From contig NZ_CP022221.1 of assembly GCF_004114935.1 (NCBI RefSeq), positions 8,825,001 through 8,889,000 of the forward strand: a stretch of DNA of 64,000 nt, written 5' to 3'. The first letter of the stretch is position 1; every line of letters begins with the position of its first letter. A model generated the notes under the pieces. It worked only from the letters and a program-made list of their open reading frames with translations, did no database searches and was not told where the DNA came from. This stretch comes from Bradyrhizobium zhanjiangense (lineage in GTDB: Bacteria > Pseudomonadota > Alphaproteobacteria > Rhizobiales > Xanthobacteraceae). The position numbers were made by a program, and so were the translations under genes. Positions 33,834 to 40,842 of the stretch are shown piece by piece.

Positions 33834-33974
33834 GAAAAGGCTGGACAATTTCGGTATTGCCGAAAACGAGTTGCGGCGTCGGGCAAAACAGGGGTAATAT
33901 TCCATCATCGGCTGCTGTGCCCGGTGACGCAACGCCAGCGGATATGTCCTTTCACTCTTCCTGCACCCCCGGTC

Positions 33975-34138
33975 CCCATCCTCCCCTGGAGGGGGAGGAT
34001 CGGTTCGCATGCAGCGAAGCGGAATGCGGACCGAGGTGGGGTGACGGTCTGTCCGCGCACGCACTGCCAGTGGTGAGAGACCACCCCACCCCGCTCGCGC
34101 TGCGCGCGATCGACCCTCCTCCTCCAGGGGAGGGTAAG
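33975..34138. repeat. Inverted pair of hairpin repeats (family R1)
   Basis: Unit a (33975-34044) runs from CCTCCCCTGGAGGGGGAGG to a GAGGTGGGGTGA end. Unit b (34082-34138) is the inverse, from CCACCCCACCCC to CTCCAGGGGAGGGTAAG. Each has a hairpin head CCCTGGAGGGG and a second GCGC-rich palindrome. The same family recurs at 38041-38099, 38179-38238 and 38661-38718. Between metH (stop 33777) and this repeat I see no gene in about 200 nt. Confidence 0.85.
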
Positions 34139-36312: not shown

Positions 36313-36397
36313 GTCATTGCGAGCGCAGCGAAGCAATCCAGTATCTTTCCGCGGAGACAGTCTGGATTGCTTCGTCGCAAGGGCTCCTCGCAATGAC
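36313..36397. repeat. Inverted pair of palindromic repeats (family R3)
   Basis: Unit a GTCATTGCGAGCGCAGCGAA... (36313-36341, ending GCAATCCAG) and its inverse (36361-36397, starting TCTGGATTGCTTCG, ending GCAATGAC) flank about 19 nt. This is the BIME-like layout of interspersed repeats. It fills the gap between the convergent dehydratase and glpK genes. Confidence 0.8.
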
Positions 36398-36448
36398 TGT
36401 GTGGAGGCAATCGATTGCGCTCCGCTCCATGCGAGTAGGGGGACGTGC

Positions 36449-37954: not shown

Positions 37955-38040
37955 GGCGGCTTACCCTGGCGTTATCCCGGAGGGGATCATTGTGTCGCGC
38001 CAAAGGGAGCGGATTAGGGCGGCAAGGTCAAGGCGGCTCT

Positions 38041-38238
38041 CCTTACCCTCCCCTGGAGGGGGAGGGTCGACCGCGCGCAGCGCGGGCGGGGTGGGGTGAA
38101 GCCACAAAGGCGGTCTCACATTCGTTTCAGAAGGATCTTTGACACGCGTTCAGAAGCACCGCATTCGCGGATGGTCTGTCACCCCACCCCGCTGCGCATT
38201 ACATGCGCAGCGACCCTCCCCCTCCAGGGGAGGGTAAG
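38041..38238. repeat. Two facing copies of hairpin repeat R1 between glpK and the DUF559 remnant
   Basis: Unit c (38041-38099, CTTACCCTCCCCTGGAGG to GTGGGGTGA) and unit d (38179-38238, TCACCCCACCCC to AGGGGAGGGTAAG) are inverted to each other with about 80 nt between. They take up most of the 304-nt gap 37955-38258, in which I see no gene. Unit d begins about 20 nt after the restored end of the DUF559 frame. Confidence 0.85.
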
Positions 38239-38258
38239 AGAAGCGCCCCCTTGAAGCT

Positions 38259-38650
38259 TCAGGTTCGACGGTGCTTGAAGGGTGTCGTTTCCGCCTCGCG
38301 CGATCGATACAGCTCTACATAGATCCGTTCGAGCACGGCGGTCAGGTCGGCAGTAATCTTGAATTCCAGAATCGGATGACGCGGTAACCTTCGTTCTCGA
38401 GCCAGCGTTGGCGATCGAGGTCACGTGCTGCCGTATCATCTTCGTTGTGGTGTCCGCCGTCGAGCTCGATGATGAGGCGCTTGGCCGGACAGAAGAAGTC
38501 GACGACGTAGGGACCGATCGGCGCCTGCCGGCGGAAGTGCGAGCCGTCCATCGGAAGTTCTTTGAGGGCACGCCACAAGATCCGTTCATGCGGTGTCGTG
38601 TTAGCCCGGAGCTTCTTCGCGGCGGCGCGTCGGATCGATGTTGAGACCAT
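38259..38650 (-). pseudogene. Frameshifted DUF559 (Vsr-like endonuclease fold) gene
   Basis: From ATG 38650 the reading frame gives a DUF559 protein: TPHERILWRALKELPMDGSHFRRQAPIGPYVVDFFCPAKRLIIELDGG..., with the PD-(D/E)xK-like residues in VVDFFC and LIIELDGGHH. It stops early after YRVIRFWNSRLLPT (TGA at 38342, 102 aa). In the next frame the missing family tail continues at once as KITADLTAVLERIYVELYRS to a TGA at 38259. A one-base loss near 38357-38366 (AATTCAAG) explains this. The gene starts 10 nt after R1 unit e and its restored end is about 20 nt from unit d. The truncated product may still be made. Confidence 0.8.
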
Positions 38651-38660
38651 TTGCGTGGCT

Positions 38661-38718
38661 TCACCCCACCCCGCTCGCGCTTCGCGCGAACGACCCTCCC
38701 CCTCCAGGGGAGGGTAAG
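38661..38718 (-). repeat. Hairpin repeat R1, unit e, directly upstream of DUF559
   Basis: Same family and orientation as unit d: on the minus strand it reads TTACCCTCCCCTGG... to GTGGGGTGA and ends 10 nt before the DUF559 ATG. It may supply the ribosome binding site (GGGGTGA) or promoter for that gene. Confidence 0.85.
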
Positions 38719-38757
38719 GGAAGCGCAGCGTCGATGCAATTGTAAGTCGTGAGAACC

Positions 38758-39579: not shown

Positions 39580-40842
39580 TGTTCAGCCCGGGGACATGAC
39601 CGACGGGTGTTCGGGGACATAGCCGACACTTTCTCCGCTCGCCAAGTCGATGATAGCGATTTGGTGGGCGGCAAAGAAGATCCCGTATTGCGCATCGTTT
39701 GCCGAGGGGCGGATGGCGAGGCGCTCGCCACGGAAGGCCTGTGGCACTTTCCACAGACGTCCCTTGAAGCTGACATAGGCCTTGGTCGTGGAGACGCGGC
39801 GCACGATCTCATGGCTGTCGTATTCGACCTGTGGCAAGCGATCGGGCATTGGTCGCTGGCTGGGCCGATATCGACTGGCCGGGACCTGTTGTCCGAGCGC
39901 CTCGTGTGGCCGTTCGAAGTTGTAGACTTCCCGCCAGGCGTCGAAGGCACGCTGCGTCTCTGCGAGATCGCGGAACTGTCGCAGTGCGAACACCTCAGCC
40001 GCGAGGGTGCGGTGGAATCGTTCATTCTTGCCGCGGCTTTGCGGGTGATATGGGCGGCTGCGGATGACGGCGACGCCAAGCTTGAGCAGCCACACCGAGA
40101 ACCGTGTCCATCGCTCGCCGGAAGGATCACCCCAGGGCGAACCATTGTCGACGAAGAAGGCCTCCGGGAGCCCGTAGTGGCGAAAGGTCTTCTCCAGGCG
40201 GCTGCGCACGGTATCTGTGCGTTGATCGGCACAGGCCTGCAGACACAGATCATAGCGGGAGTGGTCATCCACCACCGTCAGAGGATGGCACTGGGTATCA
40301 TTGCCGAGCCGAACCCAGCCTTTGAAGTCCATCTGCCACAACAGATTGGGGGCCGGCATCTCGAAACGCTGGCTTGCCATCGGGCCGCCGATCGGAGGCT
40401 TGATGCGGCCAGACCGACGCAAGATCTGATGAACTGTTGAGACTGCTGGCGAACGCAAACCATTGCGCTCCAGGCAGTGAGCTATCTTGCGAGCTCCCCA
40501 TGCCGGATGGGCATCGCGCACCGCGAGAATACGTGCCTCGAGCTCGCAATCGGTCTGTCCCGGGCTCGCATGCGGTCGGCGCGAGCGGTCGTTGACATTC
40601 TGATCCGCTTGCCATCGTGCAAGCCACTTGTAGCCCGTGTCGGGATGGATATTGAACCGCCGGCAGAGCTCCCGCCGGTTCGCTCCCTCCTGCATCGCCA
40701 GCCGCACGAACTCCCGCCGCTGATCCATCACCGACACCTCTCGCCAGGGCATGGACTTGGCCTCCTTTACCGCCAAATCCCTGCACTATGATGTGTCGGC
40801 TATGTCCCCGAACACCCGTCGGTCATGTCCCCGGGCTGAACA
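39580..40842 (-). mobile_element. IS481-family insertion sequence, apparently complete
   Basis: 1263 bp from TGT to ACA ends, with perfect terminal inverted repeats of 49 bp (39581-39629 and 40793-40841; 50 bp counting the terminal T/A). A direct repeat CTTGA flanks it (39575-39579 and 40843-40847), or ACTTGAT if the ends are drawn one base inward. Each terminus holds two 16-bp near-repeats of CGGGGACATNNCCGAC spaced 23 bp (39589-39604 and 39612-39627). Perfect ends and an intact transposase suggest recent insertion. Confidence 0.92.
39583..40752 (-). CDS. IS481-family DDE transposase
   Basis: 389 aa from ATG 40752, with AGGAGG at 40761-40766 spaced 8 nt. N-terminal helix-turn-helix (RRELCRRFNIHPDTGYKWLARW), second HTH-like part (PAWGARKIAHCLERNG), then the rve DDE core: Asp in LLWQMDFKG, Asp in AFFVDNGSPWG and Glu in GKNERFHRT. 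The C-terminus has the IS481 SFKGRLWKVP block and runs into the terminal repeat (stop 39583). A TTG at 40776 is a possible longer start. Confidence 0.95.
   Translation of the reverse strand: MPWREVSVMDQRREFVRLAMQEGANRRELCRRFNIHPDTGYKWLARWQADQNVNDRSRRPHASPGQTDCELEARILAVRDAHPAWGARKIAHCLERNGLRSPAVSTVHQILRRSGRIKPPIGGPMASQRFEMPAPNLLWQMDFKGWVRLGNDTQCHPLTVVDDHSRYDLCLQACADQRTDTVRSRLEKTFRHYGLPEAFFVDNGSPWGDPSGERWTRFSVWLLKLGVAVIRSRPYHPQSRGKNERFHRTLAAEVFALRQFRDLAETQRAFDAWREVYNFERPHEALGQQVPASRYRPSQRPMPDRLPQVEYDSHEIVRRVSTTKAYVSFKGRLWKVPQAFRGERLAIRPSANDAQYGIFFAAHQIAIIDLASGESVGYVPEHPSVMSPG

Follow-up and report, generated by a model that had tools for sequence, protein, structure and literature searches.

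DUF559 genes usually adjoin a triplex-type repeat, across many kinds of bacteria, and we consider it probable that gene and repeat together make up a selfish or semi-selfish unit, with nuclease-driven spread as the best explanation of how they are distributed. The repeat was known beforehand as the TM/PIT motif (PMC4666352), with no function given in the text available, and DUF559 is annotated as a domain of unknown function. What is new is a candidate nuclease partner for the TM/PIT repeat, in an arrangement that resembles REP/RAYT systems and has a predicted Vsr/homing-endonuclease fold.

A decaying DUF559 gene lies between R1 repeats

The window (the whole 64,000-nucleotide stretch of DNA analysed) holds a DUF559 gene and five copies of a repeat, R1, each where the original prediction had placed it:

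33973..34002, plus strand: left-arm head of a gene-less R1 doublet; its presence varies among relatives
34082..34138, minus strand: right arm of the gene-less R1 doublet of 33973-34138
38042..38098, plus strand: outer downstream R1 unit, of inverted polarity to the gene; pairs as outer arm with the upstream unit
38042..38238, no strand: long R1 doublet without a gene; inner edge GTGAAGCCAC..GGTCTC, like the 5' edge of the DUF559 gene
38182..38238, minus strand: R1 unit downstream of the DUF559 gene, with the gene's polarity; right arm of the long R1 doublet
38342..38650, minus strand: DUF559 (PF04480) Vsr-like nuclease gene, a decaying copy with start and catalytic core kept
38662..38718, minus strand: R1 unit that immediately precedes the DUF559 start; hairpin, second hairpin, and GGGGTGGGGTGA toward the gene

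The domain scores 111.6 bits in a profile search against a curated cut-off of 20.6, which places the gene in DUF559. The reading frame begins at an ATG near 38650 on the minus strand and breaks after ..RFWNS. This ATG lies about 10 nt inside of the R1 copy at 38662-38718 and, read along the gene, the order is R1 unit, gene, R1 unit of the same polarity and inverted R1 unit, as first described. Over 83 nt the outer arms, 38036-38118 and 38642-38724, show 87% complementarity. Of 11 DUF559 genes examined from relatives at this site, eight have an uninterrupted frame and three (L149, L150, and L156) are damaged. The genome has three other DUF559 matches, of which L001 and L002 have such repeats on both sides; the third (L004) is a weak match whose orientation the motif did not reveal, and it stayed outside the flank test.

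Two further features were seen in the window. Positions 36313-36400 contain a palindromic repeat that is not R1, with arms at 36329-36351 and 36352-36374 that are 83% complementary. A 397-aa open frame near the SDR gene (39583-40776) looks by eye like an IS481-type transposase.

The repeat is a published triplex motif

The R1-type repeat is the intrastrand triplex motif (TM, earlier PIT motif) of Holder et al. 2015 (PMC4666352). According to the available text of that article, the motif is G/C-rich and consists of a hairpin and a mirror third strand, occurs in more than 260 genomes with function and partner unreported, and has 23 intergenic copies in E. coli MG1655, including five inverted pairs, at loci that are unstable in E. 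coli. Its flanking genes are described there as having no common function, and no link of the motif to transposons, phages, or plasmids was found. The single strand folds as a triplex in vitro, and neither duplex DNA nor in vivo footprinting gave a triplex signal (PMC4666352, same text). The words DUF559 and endonuclease do not occur in this text, which names no protein partner. The original prediction had called the link between DUF559 and the repeat undescribed, and we found no published link in the open-access literature searched; the repeat itself, however, was already in print as a triplex motif.

The repeats described here share with TM/PIT a pyrimidine arm, a loop, a purine arm, a short second loop (TTA, CCG), and a mirror third strand. 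They are likewise intergenic and occur in inverted pairs, and TM deletions that leave a hairpin resemble the relic at locus L163 (see below). R1 differs in having an extra hairpin in the second loop. Across 324 units, mirroring of the purine arm by the third strand (G to G, A to A or T) has a mean score of 0.595, compared to 0.479 for shuffled units (highest of 200 shuffles, 0.501) and 0.493 for a non-mirror reading; the score holds for the set of 324 units rather than unit by unit. Inverted TM pairs would be expected to combine a type A with a type B motif; when 47 flank pairs were split by short or long second loop, a cruder division than these types, 25 were long-long, 11 short-short, and 11 mixed.

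DUF559 genes are flanked by triplex-type units in many bacteria

PF04480 was found by profile search in 145 of the 146 genomes of the genus. We sampled 34 loci (four from the window's own genome and the best 30 of the genus), of which 33 were oriented by motif, L004 being excluded. A regular expression recovered the upstream unit in 28 of these 33. The exceptions are L023, L027, and L031, where the repeat upstream runs in the opposite direction, L028, which has none upstream, and L006, where one is visible by eye.

In the class as a whole, 126 of 387 genomes contain PF04480. Eighty loci outside the window's genus were hand-picked for contig room from at least 150 matches, and in 37 of them the 220 nt upstream and downstream of the gene matched as inverted repeats better than every control of the same geometry from the same locus. 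An inverted-repeat score of at least 13 was reached by the flanks of 44/80 DUF559 genes and 14/807 other ORFs, and a score of at least 20 by 25/80 and 2/807, respectively (0/243 among ORFs with a spacer of at least 60 nt on both sides). Reading of the 36 low-scoring class loci revealed that many keep the upstream unit but have no copy downstream, in many cases since the following gene starts at the DUF559 stop codon.

A first polarity test identified upstream units of the gene's polarity at 50/80 class DUF559 genes compared to 18/812 other ORFs, and units on both sides at 27/80 compared to 2/812. We also used a set of named loci, the best 80 among 583 confirmed loci that share one conserved peptide pattern (some are Bradyrhizobium); 78 of these entered the third-strand test, as L246 and L261 lie too close to contig ends. 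Two loci are common to the class and named sets (L252 = L076 and L310 = L083) and are counted in both. A hairpin with a mirror third strand, upstream and of the same polarity, is present at 52/80 class and 58/78 named DUF559 genes, but at just 21/812 and 6/187 other ORFs, or 6/244 and 3/61 of those bounded by spacers. For an upstream hairpin alone the counts are 61/80 and 73/78, against 53/812 and 22/187, and an upstream unit of opposite polarity was found at 20/80 and 21/78 DUF559 genes. The enrichment of R1-like repeats originally predicted for DUF559 genes was therefore recovered by reading in the genus and against controls in the other two sets, and DUF559 genes are flanked by the repeat far more often than other genes are.

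Titles of the named loci include Bradyrhizobium, Caulobacter, Sphingomonas, Mesorhizobium, Dyella, Variovorax, Gallionella, Mariprofundus, and bins of Chloroflexi and Nitrospirae. Among those read, upstream units are visible in Chloroflexi (L249, L260, and L285) and Nitrospirae (L259), with lineage labels that are uncertain because many are metagenome bins.

In the loci read, the G-rich edge of the unit is often no more than about 30 nt away from the start codon, and the polarity is fixed. This is what would be expected if the upstream unit were a leader of the gene, acting in ribosome binding or autoregulation, and the downstream unit an end structure, with all other copies causally unrelated. 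We consider such cis-regulation quite unlikely, as there are up to hundreds of repeat copies per genome against a handful of DUF559 genes, inverted copies lie behind the gene, and a T-run follows the hairpin in just 8/324 units. Work cited in the available text of PMC4666352 also found no promoter or terminator activity for the motif.

In different families, DUF559 elements recur directly before carB, ruvA, metH, murB, pheT, and recF, as read from unannotated downstream DNA (L073, L074, L079, L086, L105, L113, L144, L275, L294, L110, and L264, and in the genus between pheS and pheT and between dnaN and recF). Such housekeeping genes are possibly preferred sites. Some DUF559 frames run on into the downstream unit, which gives them C-terminal tails of translated repeat such as PHPTLSP or SPSPQPSP (the L007 C-terminus, L314:4408-4761, and L313:1715-2080).

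Repeat type and presence vary between relatives

At 62% identity, 44 genus loci grouped into five DUF559 clades, with one damaged gene standing alone. The unit was recovered by regular expression in 35 of the 44, and each clade has its own repeat type (types were compared by eye). Members of clade 0 and of clade 4 are found between pheS and pheT, yet with different repeats, and clade 4 keeps its type elsewhere, at L034; this cross-site comparison covers three loci, with sites judged by eye. In genomes with several sampled DUF559 genes, the two flanks of one gene matched with a median of 15 (32 genes), compared to 9 for flanks of different genes (46 comparisons). Repeat type tracks DUF559 clade in the genus, although across sites the evidence for this is thin. 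Several DUF559 clades are found at one conserved site genus-wide, as expected of stable host genes.

We compared two sites between relatives, glpK-SDR and a GST gene, using the best 30 of 140 and of 134 genomes with a match, respectively, the window's own genome included. The glpK-SDR spacer contains a DUF559 element in 13 loci, none in 13, and four were not judgeable. Both flanks were found in 12 of the 13 elements, and L169 was recognised by spacer match. The 13 loci without the element comprise a gene-less R1 doublet (L161), a fused relic of the two outer hairpins (L163), six second-type doublets (interrupted in L159), two third-type doublets, and three other sequences. The two arms of the third-type doublets have the left-right layout of the elements at L005-L007 and L016. 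At the GST site, where the GST gene adjoins the window doublet 33973-34138, an R1 doublet is present in 12 of the 30 best loci (own included). Of the empty sites anticipated in relatives, gene-less states at the same site were thus found, but no clean pre-insertion site was recognised at either site among the 30 best loci each. A target-site duplication was not recognised by eye at glpK-SDR, at the GST site, or at aligned doublets, comparisons that offered no clean empty site.

Quite different repeats occupy the same spacers in some relatives (L204-L206, L208, L232, L153, L157, and L165), which indicates that these spacers accept several repeat families.

R1 is dispersed as an inverted doublet

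The 21-base head of R1 has 65 matches in the 9.34 Mb genome at up to three mismatches, compared to none for the reversed control, and a generic hairpin of the R1 kind has 152 copies. Many heads occur in facing pairs about 135 bp apart, giving a doublet of about 157 bp. Twenty facing pairs were fetched and 18 aligned (175-184 bp including 12 nt of flank per side) together with the two window doublets. All align over their full length and end at the hairpins, with unrelated flanks. Two facing pairs are longer, L319 (434 bp) and L333 (251 bp). L319 and the long window doublet (38042-38238) have an internal stretch resembling the 5' edge of the DUF559 gene, with 19/20 bases identical in L319. A GTAG or CTAC within about 10 nt of the hairpin foot was found at just 1/40 R1 hairpins.

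Repeat abundance follows DUF559 and not RAYT transposases

Among the 387 class genomes, at least five copies of the hairpin pattern are present in 66/98 genomes with a strong DUF559 match (E <= 1e-14) and in 16/261 without a match (odds ratio 32, Fisher p 3e-32). Absence of a match refers to the first pass of the profile search, which gave no PF04480 match in the E. coli control, although MG1655 ycjD is annotated as DUF559, and so can miss real members. The repeats are therefore not equally abundant in genomes without DUF559. Of the genomes with weak matches only, 3/28 have at least five copies. In the 31 families containing both strong and no-match genomes, 24 have a higher mean hairpin count with DUF559, five a lower one, and two an equal one (p 0.0005); this all-family result is preferred to a first test on 19 hand-picked families, which split 16 against 3. 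There are exceptions, in that seven genomes without a match hold at least 20 copies and 32/98 strong-DUF559 genomes hold fewer than five, some of these carrying other repeat sequences.

REP elements and REPINs are palindromic repeats paired with RAYT (Y1 HUH) transposases. The DUF559 genes could be passengers in repeat-rich spacers, with another transposase such as a RAYT moving the repeats, and the presence of other palindromic repeats in the same spacers of relatives would fit this. However, the window's own genome has no match to a Y1 HUH transposase at E <= 1e-3. Y1 transposases of the RAYT family occur in 80 of the 387 genomes, and at least five hairpins are found in 17/80 genomes with one and 68/307 without (odds ratio 0.95, p = 1), whereas in the same genomes the figures for DUF559 are 66/98 with a strong match and 19/289 for all others. 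Spacer-bounded genes other than DUF559 also rarely have an upstream unit. We regard the passenger explanation as very unlikely. The resemblance to REP elements and RAYTs that was initially proposed holds for the anatomy and fails for the RAYT.

Hairpins are plentiful in G+C-rich genomes, and a chance association or composition artefact might be suspected. This is contradicted by the same-locus, other-ORF, and reversed-pattern controls, and the association persists in genomes of at least 3 Mb (at least five hairpins in 55/79 with strong DUF559 compared to 12/106 without), so that we give chance next to no credence.

DUF559 proteins as predicted nucleases

DUF559 proteins are predicted PD-(D/E)XK nucleases with a Vsr/homing-endonuclease fold: the model has a Vsr-type fold with a conserved acidic/His core, in line with the fold originally suggested. 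In model comparison the closest characterised fold outside DUF559 is that of a homing endonuclease, which favours spread by cutting and repair. A homing endonuclease gene would lie within its own cleavage site, with occupied and empty alleles; at one site (glpK-SDR), gene-bearing and gene-less states were observed. The window gene differs from Vsr and the EDxHD homing endonucleases (1cw0; 3r3p, I-Bth0305I) in lying in a spacer between repeats and not in an intron or intein.

The best rival explanation, if an unlikely one, is that DUF559 is a host repair nuclease that processes repeat structures, adjoins the repeats because it acts there or is under their regulation, and limits damage without spreading them. 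The Vsr-like fold, stable sites, and strong purifying selection computed for DUF559 genes agree with this, as does the instability of triplex loci in E. coli (PMC4666352, available text). It also fits work on Caulobacter VsrA, a DUF559 protein described in the accessible part of PMC12907096 as tied to methylcytosine repair; VsrA has the behaviour of a repair enzyme there, and when active it can set off the SOS response. Such a guard would, however, have no need of its own repeat variant on both sides of its gene. Repeat type also tracks the gene clade, and gene-less doublets are laid out like gene-bearing elements.

A nuclease-driven model

We return to the preferred explanation, in which the units are probably acted on by the DUF559 nuclease and so spread or maintained. 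The core of the system would be a Vsr-like PD-(D/E)XK gene of about 110-120 codons, preceded immediately by one unit and often followed by an inverted one, and units would also spread as gene-less inverted doublets. The nuclease would most likely recognise the folded unit (hairpin and third strand) when it is exposed in single-stranded or supercoiled DNA and nick at or near it. Repair or replication would then copy units, doublets, and sometimes the gene elsewhere, as with homing endonucleases or REP/RAYT pairs. Nuclease action would be the simplest cause both of a clade-specific repeat next to the nuclease gene and of gene-less doublets of that type. The sequences show the association, its polarity and specificity, the clade match in the genus, the sharp-ended dispersed doublets, presence or absence between relatives where sites are shared, the Vsr/homing-endonuclease fold in a model, purifying selection, and no association with RAYTs; binding, nicking, and a causal role of the nuclease in spread are what we infer. 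The adjacency of gene and repeat in many bacteria suggests that the two form one mobile or repeat-maintaining system.

Several observations count against this explanation. No target-site duplication or clean pre-insertion site was recognised, many loci have the upstream unit alone, 16/261 DUF559-negative genomes have at least five hairpins, 32/98 strong-DUF559 genomes have fewer than five, and five families run contrary. Several clades keep to one conserved site genus-wide, and DUF559 is rare in plasmids and phages (44/72,556 plasmid records and 4/50,697 phage records). The missing triplex signal in duplex DNA and in vivo (PMC4666352) and the tie of VsrA to methylcytosine repair (PMC12907096), as given in the available parts of these articles, also weigh against it.

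The system works in a REP/RAYT-like way but is not a REP/RAYT member. The likeness lies in a small nuclease gene flanked by its own palindrome variant, which is dispersed as REPIN-like inverted doublets. The differences are a PD-(D/E)XK rather than an HUH nuclease, a triplex-type third strand, the near absence of a GTAG foot (1/40 R1 hairpins), and the Y1 HUH transposase, which has no match in the window's genome at E <= 1e-3 and no association with the repeats over 387 genomes. Short gene-less elements with inverted ends alongside a gene-bearing form also recall MITEs, but no target-site duplication was recognised and the gene is not a DD(E/D) transposase. REP-type systems are known with HUH transposases, and the tie of DUF559 to TM/PIT would extend them by a nuclease that folds differently. 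This tie gives both TM/PIT and DUF559 a testable role and offers a cause for the reported instability of the repeat.

DUF559 and TM repeats in E. coli

On a wider reading, DUF559 would be the dedicated nuclease of bacteria-wide mobile triplex-forming repeats, an HUH-independent REP-type system that works by structure-guided nicking and homing and accounts for the abundance and instability of TM/PIT, including in E. coli. We find this plausible and lean slightly against it. E. coli ycjD, annotated as DUF559, and Caulobacter vsrA allow direct tests in laboratory strains; YcjD and VsrA have the same domain as the window gene. The accessible parts of PMC12817139, PMC1189080, and PMC12907096 contain no link of YcjD or VsrA to TM.

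ycjD is present in 3365 of 5426 E. coli genomes, as a single chromosomal gene in most. In the available text of PMC12817139, ycjD and another operon are alternatives at one site, and in ST69 and ST182 ycjD is extended by 12 nt at the 3' end. The stop codon of ycjD in E. coli ET201 falls inside the loop of a complete inverted TM unit; behind ycjD in K-12 MG1655, the hairpin is present and the third-strand stretch absent. A further TM begins 165 nt past the ycjD stop codon in both ET201 and MG1655. Between ycjD and fabI in the E. coli locus L314, a stretch resembling the tail of a second DUF559 gene (METVLENIRQGLNRP) lies between the two repeat units.
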